From Flavobacterium amnicola (lineage in GTDB: Bacteria > Bacteroidota > Bacteroidia > Flavobacteriales > Flavobacteriaceae), in the NCBI RefSeq assembly GCF_004122165.1, contig NZ_SBKO01000001.1, positions 806,001 through 870,000 on the forward strand: 64,000 nt of DNA, given 5' to 3'. The translations under genes were made by a program, and so were the position numbers. The notes below the pieces were generated by a model. That model saw only the letters and a program-made list of their open reading frames with translations, was not told the DNA's origin and searched no databases. How positions within the stretch are numbered: the first letter of the stretch is position 1; the number at the start of each line of letters is the position of its first letter. Positions 12,166 through 36,803 of this stretch are shown piece after piece.

Positions 12166-13164
12166 TTATTTCTGATTCAATAAAATAGCGGCTTCTTTCG
12201 CAAAATACGTCGAAATCAAACTCGCACCGGCTCTTTTAATACACATTAACTGTTCCATCATGATTTTGTCGTGATCCAACCAGCCTCTTTCTGAAGCCGC
12301 TTTAATCATCGCATATTCACCCGAAACATGGAAAACTGTTACAGGCACATCAACGGCATTTTTCACTTCGCGGACAATGTCCAAATACGCAATTCCCGGT
12401 TTGACCATGACCATATCGGCACCTTCTTCTACATCCCACAACGCTTCTTTTACGGCTTCGATGCGATTCGCATAATCCATTTGGTAGGTTTTTTTATCTT
12501 TTGGCACTTCGACATCTGCTTCTTTAGGCGCGCTGTCTAAGGCATCACGAAACGGACCGTAAAACGCTGAAGCATATTTCGCCGAATAACTCATGATACC
12601 CACATTATGAAATCCTGCCGCATCCAAACCTTCACGTAAACGCAACACTCTTCCGTCCATCATATCACTAGGTGCTACAAAATCGGCTCCCGCTTGCGCA
12701 TGAGAAACAGCCATTTTTACTAAAGCTGCATTCGTGGCATCGTTGGCTACATCTCCATTTTCAATTATACCATCATGACCGTAAATTGAATACGGGTCTA
12801 AAGCCACATCGGGCATTACAATCATTTTGGGACAAGCAGATTTAATGGCTTTAATGGCTTGTTGCATCAATCCGTTGGGATTCCAGGCTTCTTTGCCGGT
12901 ATTGTCTTTTAGGTCTTCGCTTACTTTTACGTAAATGTTTACCGCACGAATTCCTAAATCGTATATTTCTTTGACTTCTTTGACTGTTAAATCAATCGAT
13001 CGACGGTAAATTCCAACCATAGAAGGAATCTCGACCTGCACGTTTTCACCTTCCGTAATAAACATTGGAAACATAAAATCACTTGGACTTAATGTGGTTT
13101 CACGAACTAAACTTCTGATGGATTCGTTAGTTCTTAATCTTCTGCCTCTGTGTAATGGGAACAT
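12166..13164 (-). CDS. hemB: Porphobilinogen synthase (delta-aminolevulinate dehydratase)
   Basis: Condenses two 5-aminolevulinate molecules into porphobilinogen in the cytosol. The 332-residue chain has the two Schiff-base lysine contexts (SYSAKYASAFYGPFRDA and MVMVKPGIAYLDI) and the DMMDGRV substrate-pocket motif. The metal site reads DVALDPYSIYGHDG, with Ala and Asp where zinc enzymes have a cysteine triad, so this is the magnesium-type rather than zinc-type enzyme (inference from family knowledge). It is the last hem gene of the hemD-hemE-hemF unit. Its start codon follows a 35-bp heptamer array by 8 nt, and an S23-family gene is interposed between it and hemF. Confidence 0.95.
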   Translation of the reverse strand: MFPLHRGRRLRTNESIRSLVRETTLSPSDFMFPMFITEGENVQVEIPSMVGIYRRSIDLTVKEVKEIYDLGIRAVNIYVKVSEDLKDNTGKEAWNPNGLMQQAIKAIKSACPKMIVMPDVALDPYSIYGHDGIIENGDVANDATNAALVKMAVSHAQAGADFVAPSDMMDGRVLRLREGLDAAGFHNVGIMSYSAKYASAFYGPFRDALDSAPKEADVEVPKDKKTYQMDYANRIEAVKEALWDVEEGADMVMVKPGIAYLDIVREVKNAVDVPVTVFHVSGEYAMIKAASERGWLDHDKIMMEQLMCIKRAGASLISTYFAKEAAILLNQK

Positions 13165-13172
13165 AGTTTATA

Positions 13173-13207
13173 AGTTTTAAGTTAACGGTTTACAGTTAAC
13201 AGTTATA
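13173..13207. repeat. Five-unit heptanucleotide array upstream of hemB
   Basis: Five contiguous 7-bp units lie in register. On the plus strand the first is AGTTTTA, then AGTTAAC and GGTTTAC, then a second AGTTAAC, ending with AGTTATA. The array fills the S23-hemB spacer, overlaps the S23 stop codon, and ends 8 nt from the hemB ATG. An inverted array of the same heptamer type lies at 13568-13588 on the other side of the S23 gene. Confidence 0.85.
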
Positions 13208-13562
13208 GTGTTGCACTTATTTTATTTATTAGTGATGCTAACATTTTTTTAATTTCAGATAGTTCAGAAAGAAGTTCTTCTGATTTTTCCTTTTCAACAA
13301 AATTTAATTCGGTTGACACAAAAAGTAAATATTCTAACTCATGTGCTGAACCTGAAGAAATATACAAAAATCGAATTAGTTCTTTTTGTGTTTGTCTTCC
13401 ATATCCTTCCGCGATATTTGTTGGAATTGAAAGTGAAGCTCTATTAATTTGCGAAATTAAATTGAATTGTTCACTTTTCGGAAAAGTAGAAGTTAATTTA
13501 TAAACATCTAAAACCAATTGATGCCCTTTTTGCCAAACATTGTATTTTCTATAATCAATCAT
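13203..13562 (-). CDS. S23/IVP-family four-helix-bundle protein
   Basis: A protein of 119 residues with the full family signature: YNVWQKGHQLVLDVYKLT at the start, then INRASLSIPTNIAEGYGR and LYISSGSAHELEYLL. The family was named from proteins encoded in 23S rRNA intervening sequences and also includes Avd, the accessory protein of diversity-generating retroelements, which binds nucleic acid. Free-standing members are common in Bacteroidota with no known job. It is unusual here because it splits hemF from hemB, and its two flanks carry inverted arrays of one heptanucleotide family. It may be a passenger cassette rather than a heme gene (inference). No reverse transcriptase is present in the window. 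Confidence 0.88.
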   Translation of the reverse strand: MIDYRKYNVWQKGHQLVLDVYKLTSTFPKSEQFNLISQINRASLSIPTNIAEGYGRQTQKELIRFLYISSGSAHELEYLLFVSTELNFVEKEKSEELLSELSEIKKMLASLINKISATL

Positions 13563-13567
13563 CGAGT

Positions 13568-13588
13568 GTTAACCGTTAACTGTAAACT
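13568..13588. repeat. Three-unit heptanucleotide array upstream of the S23 gene
   Basis: Three contiguous 7-bp units (GTTAACC, GTTAACT and GTAAACT on the plus strand) fill the space between the hemF stop codon, which the last unit overlaps, and the S23 start, 5 nt away. The 13-bp word GTTAACTGTAAAC (13575-13587) is the exact reverse complement of 13188-13200 on the far side of the gene. Confidence 0.85.
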
Positions 13589-14492
13589 AATTCAACCATT
13601 CGATTGGATTCTCTAATACTTTAATCAGCTTTTCTTCTTCGCTACCCGCTTCAGGATGATGATCGTAATGCCATTGCACATGTGGCGGCAAACTCATCAA
13701 GATACTTTCGATTCTTCCGTTGGTTTTAAGTCCGAAAAGGGTGCCTTTATCGTGCACCAAATTGAATTCTACATAACGGCCACGACGAATTTCTTGCCAA
13801 GTACGTTGTTCAGGTGTAAATGGTAAATCTTTTCTTCTTTCCACAATCGGAACATAGGCTTGTAAGAAAGAATTGCCAACTTCTGTCACAAAATTGTACC
13901 AATCTTCCATTTTCATGTCTTCTGTTTCTTTCAAATAATCAAAAAACAAACCGCCTAAACCACGCGCTTCATTTCGGTGAGCATTCCAAAAATAAGCATC
14001 ACATTGTTTTTTATATTTTGGATAAAATTCCGGATTGTGTTTGTCGCAAGCAGTTTTACACGTTTGATGAAAATGCTTTCCGTCTTCTTCAAACAAATAA
14101 TAAGGCGTTAAATCCTGTCCGCCACCAAACCAACTATTGATTACCTTCCCGTTATCATCATACATTTCAAAATAGCGCCAGTTGGCATGAACCGTGGGTA
14201 CCATTGGGTTTTTCGGATGAATTACCAAGCTCAAACCACAAGCAAAAAAATCGGCTTCCCCAACATTGAATAATTGCTGCATCGAATCCGGTAATTTACC
14301 ATGAACTGCCGAAATGTTGACACCGCCTTTTTCAAAAACGGCACCATTTTCGATAACGCGTGTTCTTCCGCCACCGCCTTCTGGTCTGTGCCATAAATCT
14401 TCACGGAATTTTGCCGTTCCGTCACTATCTTCCAGGCCTTTACAGATTTGGTCTTGTAAGTTTTGTATGTATTGATAAAATTTATTTTTCAT
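13587..14492 (-). CDS. hemF: Oxygen-dependent coproporphyrinogen III oxidase
   Basis: Oxidatively decarboxylates coproporphyrinogen III to protoporphyrinogen IX using O2. The 301-residue length is normal for the family. Signature stretches are visible: MVPTVHANWRYFE, SWFGGGQDLTPYY, NEARGLGGLFFDYL and GRYVEFNLVHDKGT. The conserved His residues in VHANWR and in the region around HFHQTC and HRNEARG are present. Its start overlaps the end of the DUF3575 gene by 11 nt, so the two are co-transcribed and probably translationally coupled. It lies downstream of hemE and upstream of the S23 gene and hemB. Its presence indicates aerobic heme synthesis. Confidence 0.95.
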   Translation of the reverse strand: MKNKFYQYIQNLQDQICKGLEDSDGTAKFREDLWHRPEGGGGRTRVIENGAVFEKGGVNISAVHGKLPDSMQQLFNVGEADFFACGLSLVIHPKNPMVPTVHANWRYFEMYDDNGKVINSWFGGGQDLTPYYLFEEDGKHFHQTCKTACDKHNPEFYPKYKKQCDAYFWNAHRNEARGLGGLFFDYLKETEDMKMEDWYNFVTEVGNSFLQAYVPIVERRKDLPFTPEQRTWQEIRRGRYVEFNLVHDKGTLFGLKTNGRIESILMSLPPHVQWHYDHHPEAGSEEEKLIKVLENPIEWLN

Positions 14493-16098: not shown

Positions 16099-16133
16099 TT
16101 TTAGCTTTTAGCCAATAGCATTTAGCAATCAGC
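16099..16133. repeat. Five-unit heptanucleotide array across the hemD-hemE junction
   Basis: Five contiguous 7-bp units on the plus strand each end in AGC (ends at 16105, 16112, 16119, 16126 and 16133), for example TTTTAGC twice, CAATAGC and ATTTAGC. Read in the gene direction the unit is about GCTAAAW. The first units in the gene direction encode the last residues and stop of HemD; the last ends 5 nt from the hemE start codon. Confidence 0.85.
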
Positions 16134-16793
16134 TTTATAATAATTGATACATTGGATAATCACATTCTCAACAGAAGGTTGATTGGCGATTACGATATTT
16201 TGACTATACTTTTCGACTGCTTCTGCGGTGGTGTCTCCAATACAAAAACAAACTTCAGTAGTAATTTTATTGTCTTTAGTGTAACTTTCTACTCCCGATG
16301 GACTGAAAAACAAGAGGGCATCCGACTTTGAATTTATTTTTTGAGGAGTTAAAAGGGTTTGGTAGACTTCAATTTCATTGAATGTAATTCCGTTTTCGGT
16401 TAACAATTCCGGCAAGGTGTCCCGACGTAAATTGCCACTAAAAAAAGTATAGGTAGTGTCTGCATAAACCAAACTGATGATTTCAGCTAAATCGGCTGCA
16501 TAACCTGTGTATGCTTCCACTTTAAAACCCTTTTCTTCCAGTAGTGCTTTGGTTTTTAAACCCACACAAAAAACGGATTTGTTTTTTAATTTTTCTACCT
16601 CTTTATTTTCTAGAATGGCATAAACGGCATTTTGACTGGTAAAAATCAAGGTTTCATTCGTGTTTTTTAATTCGAATGGTTGGTGCATAATTTGAATAAA
16701 ATCAGCTTCAATAACCGAAAAACCAGCATTCAATAAGAACTGTTTCTGATTGATCTGAAGTTTTTTGGTCGATAAAATTCGTGTCTCTGCCAT
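16122..16793 (-). CDS. hemD: Uroporphyrinogen-III synthase
   Basis: Cyclises hydroxymethylbilane with inversion of ring D to uroporphyrinogen III. The family is poorly conserved, but the 223-residue length, the two-lobed pattern, and local features fit: [29 protein letters not shown], and the C-terminal [12 protein letters not shown] with [11 protein letters not shown]. The ATG at 16793 (MAETRIL) is chosen because the longer frame runs through a terminator and the TM2 gene on the same strand. An exact -7 box lies 18 nt upstream, so hemD heads its own unit with hemE downstream. Its last codons belong to the heptamer array. Confidence 0.9.
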
Positions 16794-36017: not shown

Positions 36018-36752
36018 ATGGAAAAAATTATTTCGTACCCTATTTCTATAATTTATTACGCATTGTTTTTAAGCTGTTTGTTGGTTTTTCATCCCATACA
36101 GTGGATTTGTTTGAATGTTTTTGGCTATCAAGCGCATAAAAAAAGTGTCGATTATTTGAATTTTTGTTTGGCACGATGTACCAATTTGTTAGGAACACGA
36201 TATGTTTTTAAAAACAAAGAACTGATACCGGAAAACGCTCCAATCATTTTTGTAGCCAATCATCAGAGTTTGTATGATATCGTAGCCATGATCTGGTACT
36301 TGCGTCGATTTCATGCAAAATTCGTCAGTAAAAAAGAATTAGGAAAAGGAATACCAAGTGTATCGTATAATTTAAGACACGGCGGTTCCGTTTTAATCGA
36401 TAGAAAAGACCCAAAGCAAGCGATACCAACAATTATGGGATTGGGGGCTTACATTGAAAAGCATAAGCGTTCGGCTGTGATTTTTCCAGAAGGAACAAGA
36501 AGTAAAACGGGAGTGCCCAAGAAGTTCTCTGAAAACGGATTGAAAATGCTGTGTAAAAAAGCACCATCCGCCTATGTAGTGCCCATTACCATAAACAATT
36601 CGTGGAAAATGGTTAAATTTGGCAGCTTTCCGATGGGATTAGGGAATAAATTAGAATTTATAATTCACGAACCTTTAAAAGTTTCCGAGTATTCGTTTGA
36701 GGAAATTTTTACTAAAACAGAAAATGCGGTAACGCAATCAATAAAAAATTAA
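36018..36752 (+). CDS. plsC: 1-acyl-sn-glycerol-3-phosphate acyltransferase
   Basis: Transfers an acyl chain to lysophosphatidic acid to make phosphatidic acid at the inner membrane. A protein of 244 residues with an N-terminal hydrophobic segment (~10-35), the catalytic NHQSLYDI (HxxxxD) motif, and FPEGTRSK as the phosphate-binding motif. It is followed 51 nt downstream by an acyl-ACP desaturase gene on the same strand, a sensible pairing for membrane lipid synthesis. That spacer is mostly a heptamer array. Confidence 0.92.
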   Translation: MEKIISYPISIIYYALFLSCLLVFHPIQWICLNVFGYQAHKKSVDYLNFCLARCTNLLGTRYVFKNKELIPENAPIIFVANHQSLYDIVAMIWYLRRFHAKFVSKKELGKGIPSVSYNLRHGGSVLIDRKDPKQAIPTIMGLGAYIEKHKRSAVIFPEGTRSKTGVPKKFSENGLKMLCKKAPSAYVVPITINNSWKMVKFGSFPMGLGNKLEFIIHEPLKVSEYSFEEIFTKTENAVTQSIKN

Positions 36753-36758
36753 TCAGAC

Positions 36759-36793
36759 TTTAAATTCTAATATCTAAAATCTAAAGTCTAAAA
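36759..36793. repeat. Five-unit heptanucleotide array upstream of the desaturase gene
   Basis: Five contiguous 7-bp units start at 36759, 36766, 36773, 36780 and 36787. The last four are TCTAANR-like (TCTAATA, TCTAAAA, TCTAAAG, TCTAAAA). The array begins 6 nt after the plsC stop codon and ends 10 nt before the desaturase ATG. Confidence 0.85.
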
Positions 36794-36803
36794 TATATTT
36801 AAA

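Follow-up and report, generated by a model that had tools for sequence, protein, structure and literature searches.

An S23 gene between inverted heptamer arrays in a Flavobacterium hem operon suggests an overlooked operon counterpart of rRNA intervening sequences

The hemF–hemB junction and its nearest described relatives

The nearest described systems to the locus reported here are the heptamers of the Coxiella intervening sequence (PMC4990558) and the TAACTGA direct repeats (PMC4679880). In the Coxiella type of 23S rRNA intervening sequence (IVS), as that account describes it, an S23 ORF lies in the loop of a 28 bp terminal stem, a variable number of tandem heptamers precedes the ORF, and the element is 428–444 nt in length (PMC4990558). 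The same source reports that RNase III cuts at the first heptamer, and its discussion notes that, with more than 25 years gone by since rRNA IVSs were discovered, their function and origin had still not been clarified (PMC4990558). The TAACTGA heptamers are direct repeats reported from Beggiatoaceae, Cyanobacteria and Bacteroidetes (PMC4679880).

The locus considered here lies in a 64 kb stretch of the Flavobacterium amnicola genome (the window), where an S23 (23S rRNA IVP) family gene (13203–13562) is positioned between hemF (coproporphyrinogen III oxidase; 13587–14492) upstream and hemB (porphobilinogen synthase; 12166–13164) downstream, all on the minus strand. The gap between hemF and hemB is 422 bp. 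Read on the same strand, the 5′ arm (13567–13588; TRF period 7) is the heptamer array AGTTTAC AGTTAAC GGTTAAC, which overlaps the hemF stop codon (13587–13589). The 3′ arm (13173–13205; TRF period 7 at 13180–13205) is an inverted heptamer array reading TAACTG TTAACTG TAAACCG TTAACTT; it overlaps the S23 stop codon (13203–13205), and between it and the hemB ATG lie 8 nt (13165–13172). The original prediction, made from the sequence alone, had described this S23 gene as splitting hemF from hemB between inverted heptamer arrays that touch the hemF stop codon and end just short of the hemB ATG. The ORFs, the TRF arrays and the pair formed by GTTTACAGTTAAC (13188–13200) and its inverse (13575–13587) are all present, and the predicted coordinates are correct. 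The full inverted match, found by an inverted-pair scan and by RNA folding, joins 13163–13194 to 13567–13599 and spans 437 bp with its loop (13163–13599, minus strand); at one end it runs 2 nt into the hemB start codon, and at the other it takes in the last codons of hemF.

The 150 nt flanks of the window S23 gene gave an inverted match score of 17.5 (z 6.8 against 100 dinucleotide shuffles), and none of the 71 S23 downstream flanks in our genus set pairs better with its upstream flank than its own does. The same score was reached by 8 of 4000 random placements at the same spacing in the window. Eight inverted pairs score at least 17 across the 64 kb, and only the S23 pair has a periodicity of at least 10 in both arms. 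The predicted RNA fold of 13160–13600 (minus strand) contains an 18 bp stem between the arms with S23 in the loop, and has a minimum free energy of −87.5 kcal/mol (z −3.7), equalled by 0 of 100 shuffles.

The 119 aa product, a four-helix-bundle protein, matches PF05635 (E 2e-39; 134.5 bits against a cut-off of 33.8), TIGR02436 (E 8.5e-39) and a solved relative, PDB 2gsc (E 1.4e-16). Among the best 80 of 584 loci, the nearest named S23 match is a Flavobacterium record, at 76%. The protein also shows a weak profile match to Avd of diversity-generating retroelements, but falls below the curated cut-offs of both bAvd (30.2 bits against 40) and DivGenRetAVD (34.2 bits against 80), and the array copies around S23 lack adenine-specific variation. 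An Avd-like adenine mutagenesis of the arrays was rejected, given that C/T copy-to-copy mismatches were above expectation (286 vs 168) and A-containing pairs were close to expectation. S23 genes of Flavobacterium can be transcribed, judging from an S23-annotated gene listed in a differential-expression table for Flavobacterium psychrophilum (PMC5787105).

The hemF–hemB unit resembles the Coxiella-type IVS, as described in PMC4990558, in having an S23 ORF in a loop with complementary ends as the stem, tandem heptamers upstream of the ORF (13567–13588 in the hem unit, with TRF period 7), a length of ~430–440 nt, sense orientation to the host transcript and sporadic presence at conserved sites. 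It differs in that an rRNA IVS lies in a 23S (or 16S) rRNA gene, in place of a helix loop, whereas the hem unit lies between the protein genes hemF and hemB; in addition, both arms of the hem unit are arrays, and its excision by RNase III is a step that we infer. The TAACTGA repeats share with the 3′ arm before hemB the position of intergenic tandem heptamers a few nucleotides upstream of a start codon (PMC4679880). In contrast, the unit in the window is GTTAACA-like rather than TAACTGA itself, and the TAACTGA sets are described as repeats in direct orientation, the main genome holding one inverted case (PMC4679880). A word search of that text did not find 'S23' or 'intervening' (PMC4679880).

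By analogy with the Coxiella element, we regard the proposition that the hemF–hemB unit is the operon-junction counterpart of the S23-coding 23S rRNA IVS as evenly balanced. The sequence supports it through the S23 ORF, arms of complementary heptamers, a size of 422–437 bp and the sense orientation in the operon; further support comes from the recurrence of arms, across many phyla, at the majority of the S23 genes sampled, from the match of arms within an element despite turnover of their words, and from S23-free hairpins at two of the three junctions compared. The most fitting description of the unit is as a new S23 IVS variant borne by an operon, whose excision would follow the rRNA example, and it suggests that rRNA IVSs have an overlooked counterpart in ordinary operons. 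Among the titles and abstracts listed in our searches, some of them the top of longer lists, there was no report of inverted heptamer arrays around free-standing S23 genes; most subscription journals lay outside this search, so that the novelty is provisional.

We hypothesize that the hemF–S23–hemB transcript forms a hairpin whose loop contains S23, and that RNase III would cut the stem, freeing an S23 piece and separating the hemF and hemB messages; since the stem could be cut from the message, the insert would be tolerated. The arms may be kept alike mainly by DNA-level copying between inverted repeats together with heptamer slippage, and S23 may be retained as a passenger or as a stem-binding protein. 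The location outside rRNA counts against the counterpart reading, as does the published conclusion that production of the Coxiella-type S23 protein in vivo is improbable (PMC4990558). If operon-borne S23 units are of the same kind as IVSs, the problem can be taken out of rRNA, in which the insert has no visible effect, and into ordinary operons; stem processing, S23 binding and effects on neighbouring genes would become directly testable in harmless, genetically tractable Flavobacterium.

Inverted arrays at S23 genes within and beyond the genus

The selection of S23 genes disregarded the arrays and relied on profile score or on adjacency to hemF. The sample represents the best-scoring end of longer match lists, and low-scoring S23 genes are under-sampled in it. 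A profile search from which the best-scoring matches were taken placed at least one S23 gene in 60 of 61 genus genomes. The genus set comprised 71 unique S23 genes with both flanks, derived from 80 S23 ORFs after nine had been dropped for lying at an edge or encoding an identical protein, and flanks were classed as inverted when the inverted match of the 150 nt flanks exceeded z 3.

Inverted flanks were present at 53 of the 71 genus S23 genes, compared with 18 of 369 controls (non-S23 genes flanked on both sides by 25 nt or more of intergenic DNA). Fisher's exact test gave p = 4e-37, a value that is too small because relatedness was ignored and orthologous loci were pooled. Non-S23 genes overall had inverted flanks in 22 of 616 cases, and RsfS, taken as a control family, in 1 of 29 (one of 30 was dropped for a short contig, and an odd ORF was used in scoring the row L160). 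It had been expected that heptamer arrays flank S23 more often than other small genes, and this was borne out: small control genes with intergenic DNA on both sides had inverted flanks in only 5 of 85 cases.

For a wider scan, one genome was taken per species from 84,980 species, and the best 80 of 584 S23 loci were kept, of which 76 were scored (four were dropped at an edge). Inverted flanks were found at 45 of these 76 S23 genes and at 23 of 184 control genes from the same loci. Outside Bacteroidota, as assigned from record titles and including two records titled only 'bacterium', the counts were 16 of 31 S23 genes and 9 of 82 controls. At least half of the members exceeded z 3 in 45 of 70 locus classes. 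Of 144 S23 elements, 131 had an array with a period of 7 or 8 nt (z >2) in one arm or both, vs 77 of 200 controls, the period in S23 arms being mostly 7 nt and next most often 8. The association between S23 and inverted arrays is real, and general within this sample. It should be noted that the S23 genes failing z >3, 18 of 71 in the genus and 31 of 76 in the wide set, count against the reading of these units as IVS counterparts, as does the hemB class itself, with 6 of 12 members above z 3.

The orientation of S23 is also biased. S23 points in the same direction as both neighbours in 123 of 142 cases, compared with 376 of 637 background gene triples, and is antisense to both in 3 of 142, compared with 47 of 637.

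Against the original interpretation stand the privacy of the arm words to each locus and the occurrence of similar arms at GxxExxY genes and, in 5 of 20 species, at a native mnmE segment. Of 29 scored GxxExxY genes (TIGR04256; genus loci L127–L156; one of 30 was dropped for a short contig), 24 have inverted flanks. Their arms resemble those around S23 in the same genus, and differ in enclosing another protein, in a vocabulary of CGCAAAG, CACAGAG and CACGGATT, and in being less periodic (at least one arm with z >2 in 11 of 29).

Junctions with and without S23

The prediction had treated arrays and S23 as one cassette dropped between two hem genes, and relatives were expected to show a clean junction where the cassette was absent. 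We examined 30 hemF loci from the 44 genomes with a hemF match (60 searched); hemB lay no more than 700 nt after hemF in 18 of the 30, and S23 was present in two, the window's genome and G027. Fourteen S23-free hemF–hemB junctions were shorter than 200 nt. Thirteen of these were scored, the 11 nt junction of G011 being excluded, and six exceeded z 3 as hairpins, compared with 18 of 166 control junctions; one of the six (G014) is by eye not of the short-word type. Most empty junctions hold other arrays, and only that of G011 is too short for a hairpin, so the clean, array-less junction foreseen in relatives is rare. Judged by eye against L093, the G035 junction contains an apparent decayed S23 3′ end followed by a GCTAACAG arm, and looks like a case in which S23 was lost and an arm left behind. 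In G028 and G002 the junction holds another small gene, chagasin-like by eye.

A second junction, gmk–nadD, was resolved in all but two of 30 loci taken from the 59 genomes with nadD, and three S23-free loci fell outside the scored length. S23 was found in six of the 30, four by motif and two (G073 and G005) by inspection of junctions of 481 and 473 nt. Hairpins with z >3 were present at 16 of the 19 scored S23-free junctions (the 166 control junctions apply here also), although several of the 16 come from close relatives and hence are not independent. The words of three of these hairpins (G009, G010 and G067) are by eye like those of the S23 arms at this junction. Within one clade of close relatives (support 100/98), seven species have CGCAGAG-type hairpins, and the S23 units of G075 and G015 are nested among them; the type labels come from a crude pattern, and L306 and L311, labelled as this type, do not belong to it by eye. 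At panB–rluA (30 loci from 60 genomes with panB; 13 unresolved and three outside the scored length), S23 was present in 7 of 30, and only one of the seven scored S23-free junctions had a hairpin with z >3, a result that counts against the counterpart reading.

S23-free hairpins were therefore found at two of the three junctions compared, and the hairpin whose loop S23 appears to occupy also occurs where S23 is missing. Our reading of the gmk–nadD pattern is that whole hairpins are exchanged between close relatives. The cassette idea is half right, and partly supported. In its favour, relatives carry at gmk–nadD either arms with S23 or an S23-free hairpin of other words, as if a unit had been swapped; against it stands the rarity of array-free junctions.

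A recent arrival at hemF–hemB is contradicted by the phylogeny. S23 genes of two distinct clades, across genera, occupy the hemB junction, and the window copy groups with hemB-upstream copies from Mesonia, Muricauda, Gramella, a Flavobacterium and a Flavobacteriaceae MAG; the proposal that the cassette was recently dropped in was rejected on these grounds. When the 12 locus classes with at least three members were mapped onto the S23 tree (120 columns, 144 rows, with a bootstrap that had not settled), 15 changes were needed, compared with a minimum of 11 and a shuffled mean of 57.5, indicating that S23 genes mostly stay at their own junction. In G027 a second S23 gene adjoins hemE by eye, and belongs to the same S23 clade as the window copy. 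The window's genome has two S23 genes, the second of which (G000:C11:640841–641092) is flanked by similar direct repeats of ~100 nt as well as by an inverted match of z 4.8.

These observations lead us to speculate, with less than even confidence, that a widespread and undescribed class of hairpin cassettes fills the stop-to-start gaps of operons. Its members would be self-matching arrays of short words with a spelling that varies between species and an exchangeable loop (empty, S23 or GxxExxY), and the rRNA IVSs would be the one branch that was noticed, through having landed in rRNA. Short IVSs without an ORF exist elsewhere.

Origin and maintenance of the arms

The words of the arms vary by locus, with GTTAACA in the window and CTAAGTTT, CAAAGGTT, TCTAAGAAG, TTAGTGA, TTAAAGC and others at further loci. 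At one junction the word differs between species too, yet both arms change together. The pairing of each element's own 5′ and 3′ arms was compared with 5000 random cross-species pairings, junctions being named by eye from the downstream protein. No random pairing was as good at ndpA (n=15), hemB (n=12) or rluA (n=11), and few were at nadD (15 of 5000; n=8) and acdh (12 of 5000; n=6). The signal was weak at acat (248 of 5000; n=5), metH (185; n=4) and leuD (191; n=4), and not significant at agm (856 of 5000; n=3) or in a mixed group (835 of 5000; n=3). Own-arm pairing was no better than random at groL (3568 of 5000; n=6) and pyrF (5000 of 5000; n=3), and these arms, unpaired beyond chance, count against the counterpart reading, as do the weak or non-significant smaller groups. 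In the larger locus groups, the sequences indicate that an element's arms fit each other better than they fit orthologous arms elsewhere. Such concerted change of two separated arrays would provide a natural read-out of bacterial DNA copying between inverted repeats.

Genome-wide homogenization of arm words was considered and rejected. Arms of different S23 loci within a genome were no closer than arms between genomes (median 12 vs 12; 62 vs 2198 pairs; p 0.26, with 160 of 2000 label permutations), and because these arms are unlike, the matching is local to each element. RNA-level selection was assessed through wobble pairs in the 98 of 144 elements with an arm score of at least 15. G.U arm mismatches were fewer than A.C mismatches (114 vs 164), a difference for which base composition accounts in part, and compensatory evolution of the RNA via wobble was rejected. 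Given the lack of a G.U excess, which counts against the counterpart reading, copying between inverted repeats in the DNA is the more likely reason that the arms stay alike, whatever happens in the RNA.

This result favours an alternative in which hairpin arrays arise anywhere in DNA, through slippage and template switching between arms at replication, with S23 and GxxExxY as loop passengers and RNA processing unnecessary. We consider this alternative possible, if doubtful. The mnmE arrays speak for it: in 5 of 20 species, matched inverted arrays sit, without S23, at two loops of the coding region that are shared between these species, a pattern that again weighs against the counterpart reading. 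In the window's genome they are in-frame GTTAAC arrays (G000:C31:101156–101176 and 101339–101363; L020 and L267), ~160 nt apart with native mnmE sequence between them, and the same two loops carry other words in G005, G002, G007 and G001. The summed own-arm pairing in mnmE was reached by 1 of 5000 random pairings, so arms can arise and stay matched without S23. The privacy of words to their loci points the same way, as does the abundance of S23-free hairpins with short loops. A census of 40 loci picked for holding S23 (689 genes, 45 of them S23 ORFs) found two periodic arms in 35 inverted pairs, compared with eight in a mirror control; 17 of the 35 flank S23, 13 are short-loop hairpins outside any single ORF, one flanks a clpP-like gene and four are other. 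What replication alone leaves unexplained is the enrichment of arms at S23 and GxxExxY over other genes, and the sense orientation of S23.

REPs flank RAYT transposases, with the gene lying between inverted repeats and gene-free pairs occurring elsewhere. The S23 units share this layout, and it is conceivable that S23 moves or copies the unit via its arms in the same manner, the S23-free hairpins being non-autonomous copies; the original prediction likewise allowed for a mobile or self-maintaining element. The S23-arm-like words (by eye) of the S23-free gmk–nadD hairpin in G009 would fit, as would the other-word units found where close relatives have S23 units (G075 and G015 among the CGCAGAG-hairpin species) and the multiplication of GTTWAC arrays in some genomes. 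We nevertheless find mobility of this kind unlikely. A profile search of the S23 protein found no mobility, transposase or catalytic domain, the matches at E ≤0.001 being PF05635, alone above its cut-off, and the sub-cut-off bAvd, and unlike REPs beside their transposase, the units have words that vary by locus. Moreover, S23 is mostly static on the tree, and separate S23 loci in one genome show no closer arms than loci in different genomes.

Host regulation, in which the 3′ arm by the hemB start would exert translational or attenuator-like control, as proposed for the TAACTGA heptamers, and S23 would bind the arm, is in our view very unlikely. The short distance from the 3′ arm to the hemB ATG is what such control would lead one to expect; the TAACTGA sets, for their part, mostly lie no more than several nucleotides before start codons in one Beggiatoaceae genome (PMC4679880), and co-directional downstream genes lie at a median of 45 nt from S23. 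Similar arms nevertheless precede unrelated genes, their words are not conserved, and the G011 relative manages with its 11 nt junction. Finally, that AT-rich intergenic filler arrays merely chance to flank the window S23 is scarcely credible, for although S23-free arrays are present in the window's genome and some controls also pass z >3, the contrast of 53 of 71 S23 genes with 18 of 369 controls, the single RsfS case in 29 and the wide set refute coincidence as a general account.

Two of the S23-free arrays lie in the window. At 16099–16136, a GCTAAAAGC-type array directly precedes the hemE start codon, without S23 and without a hairpin (z 0.3). At 36750–36800, an array of TCTAAAA words fills the gap between ORFs that are acyltransferase-like and desaturase-like by eye, with a hairpin z of 4.2. 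Triple arrays of GTTWAC number four in the window's genome and are absent from 54 of 61 genomes, whereas G080 has 105 matches (overlapping and palindromic, counted on both strands; for example, C1:7858–7905 and 2808420–2808467), a lineage-specific multiplication of one word.
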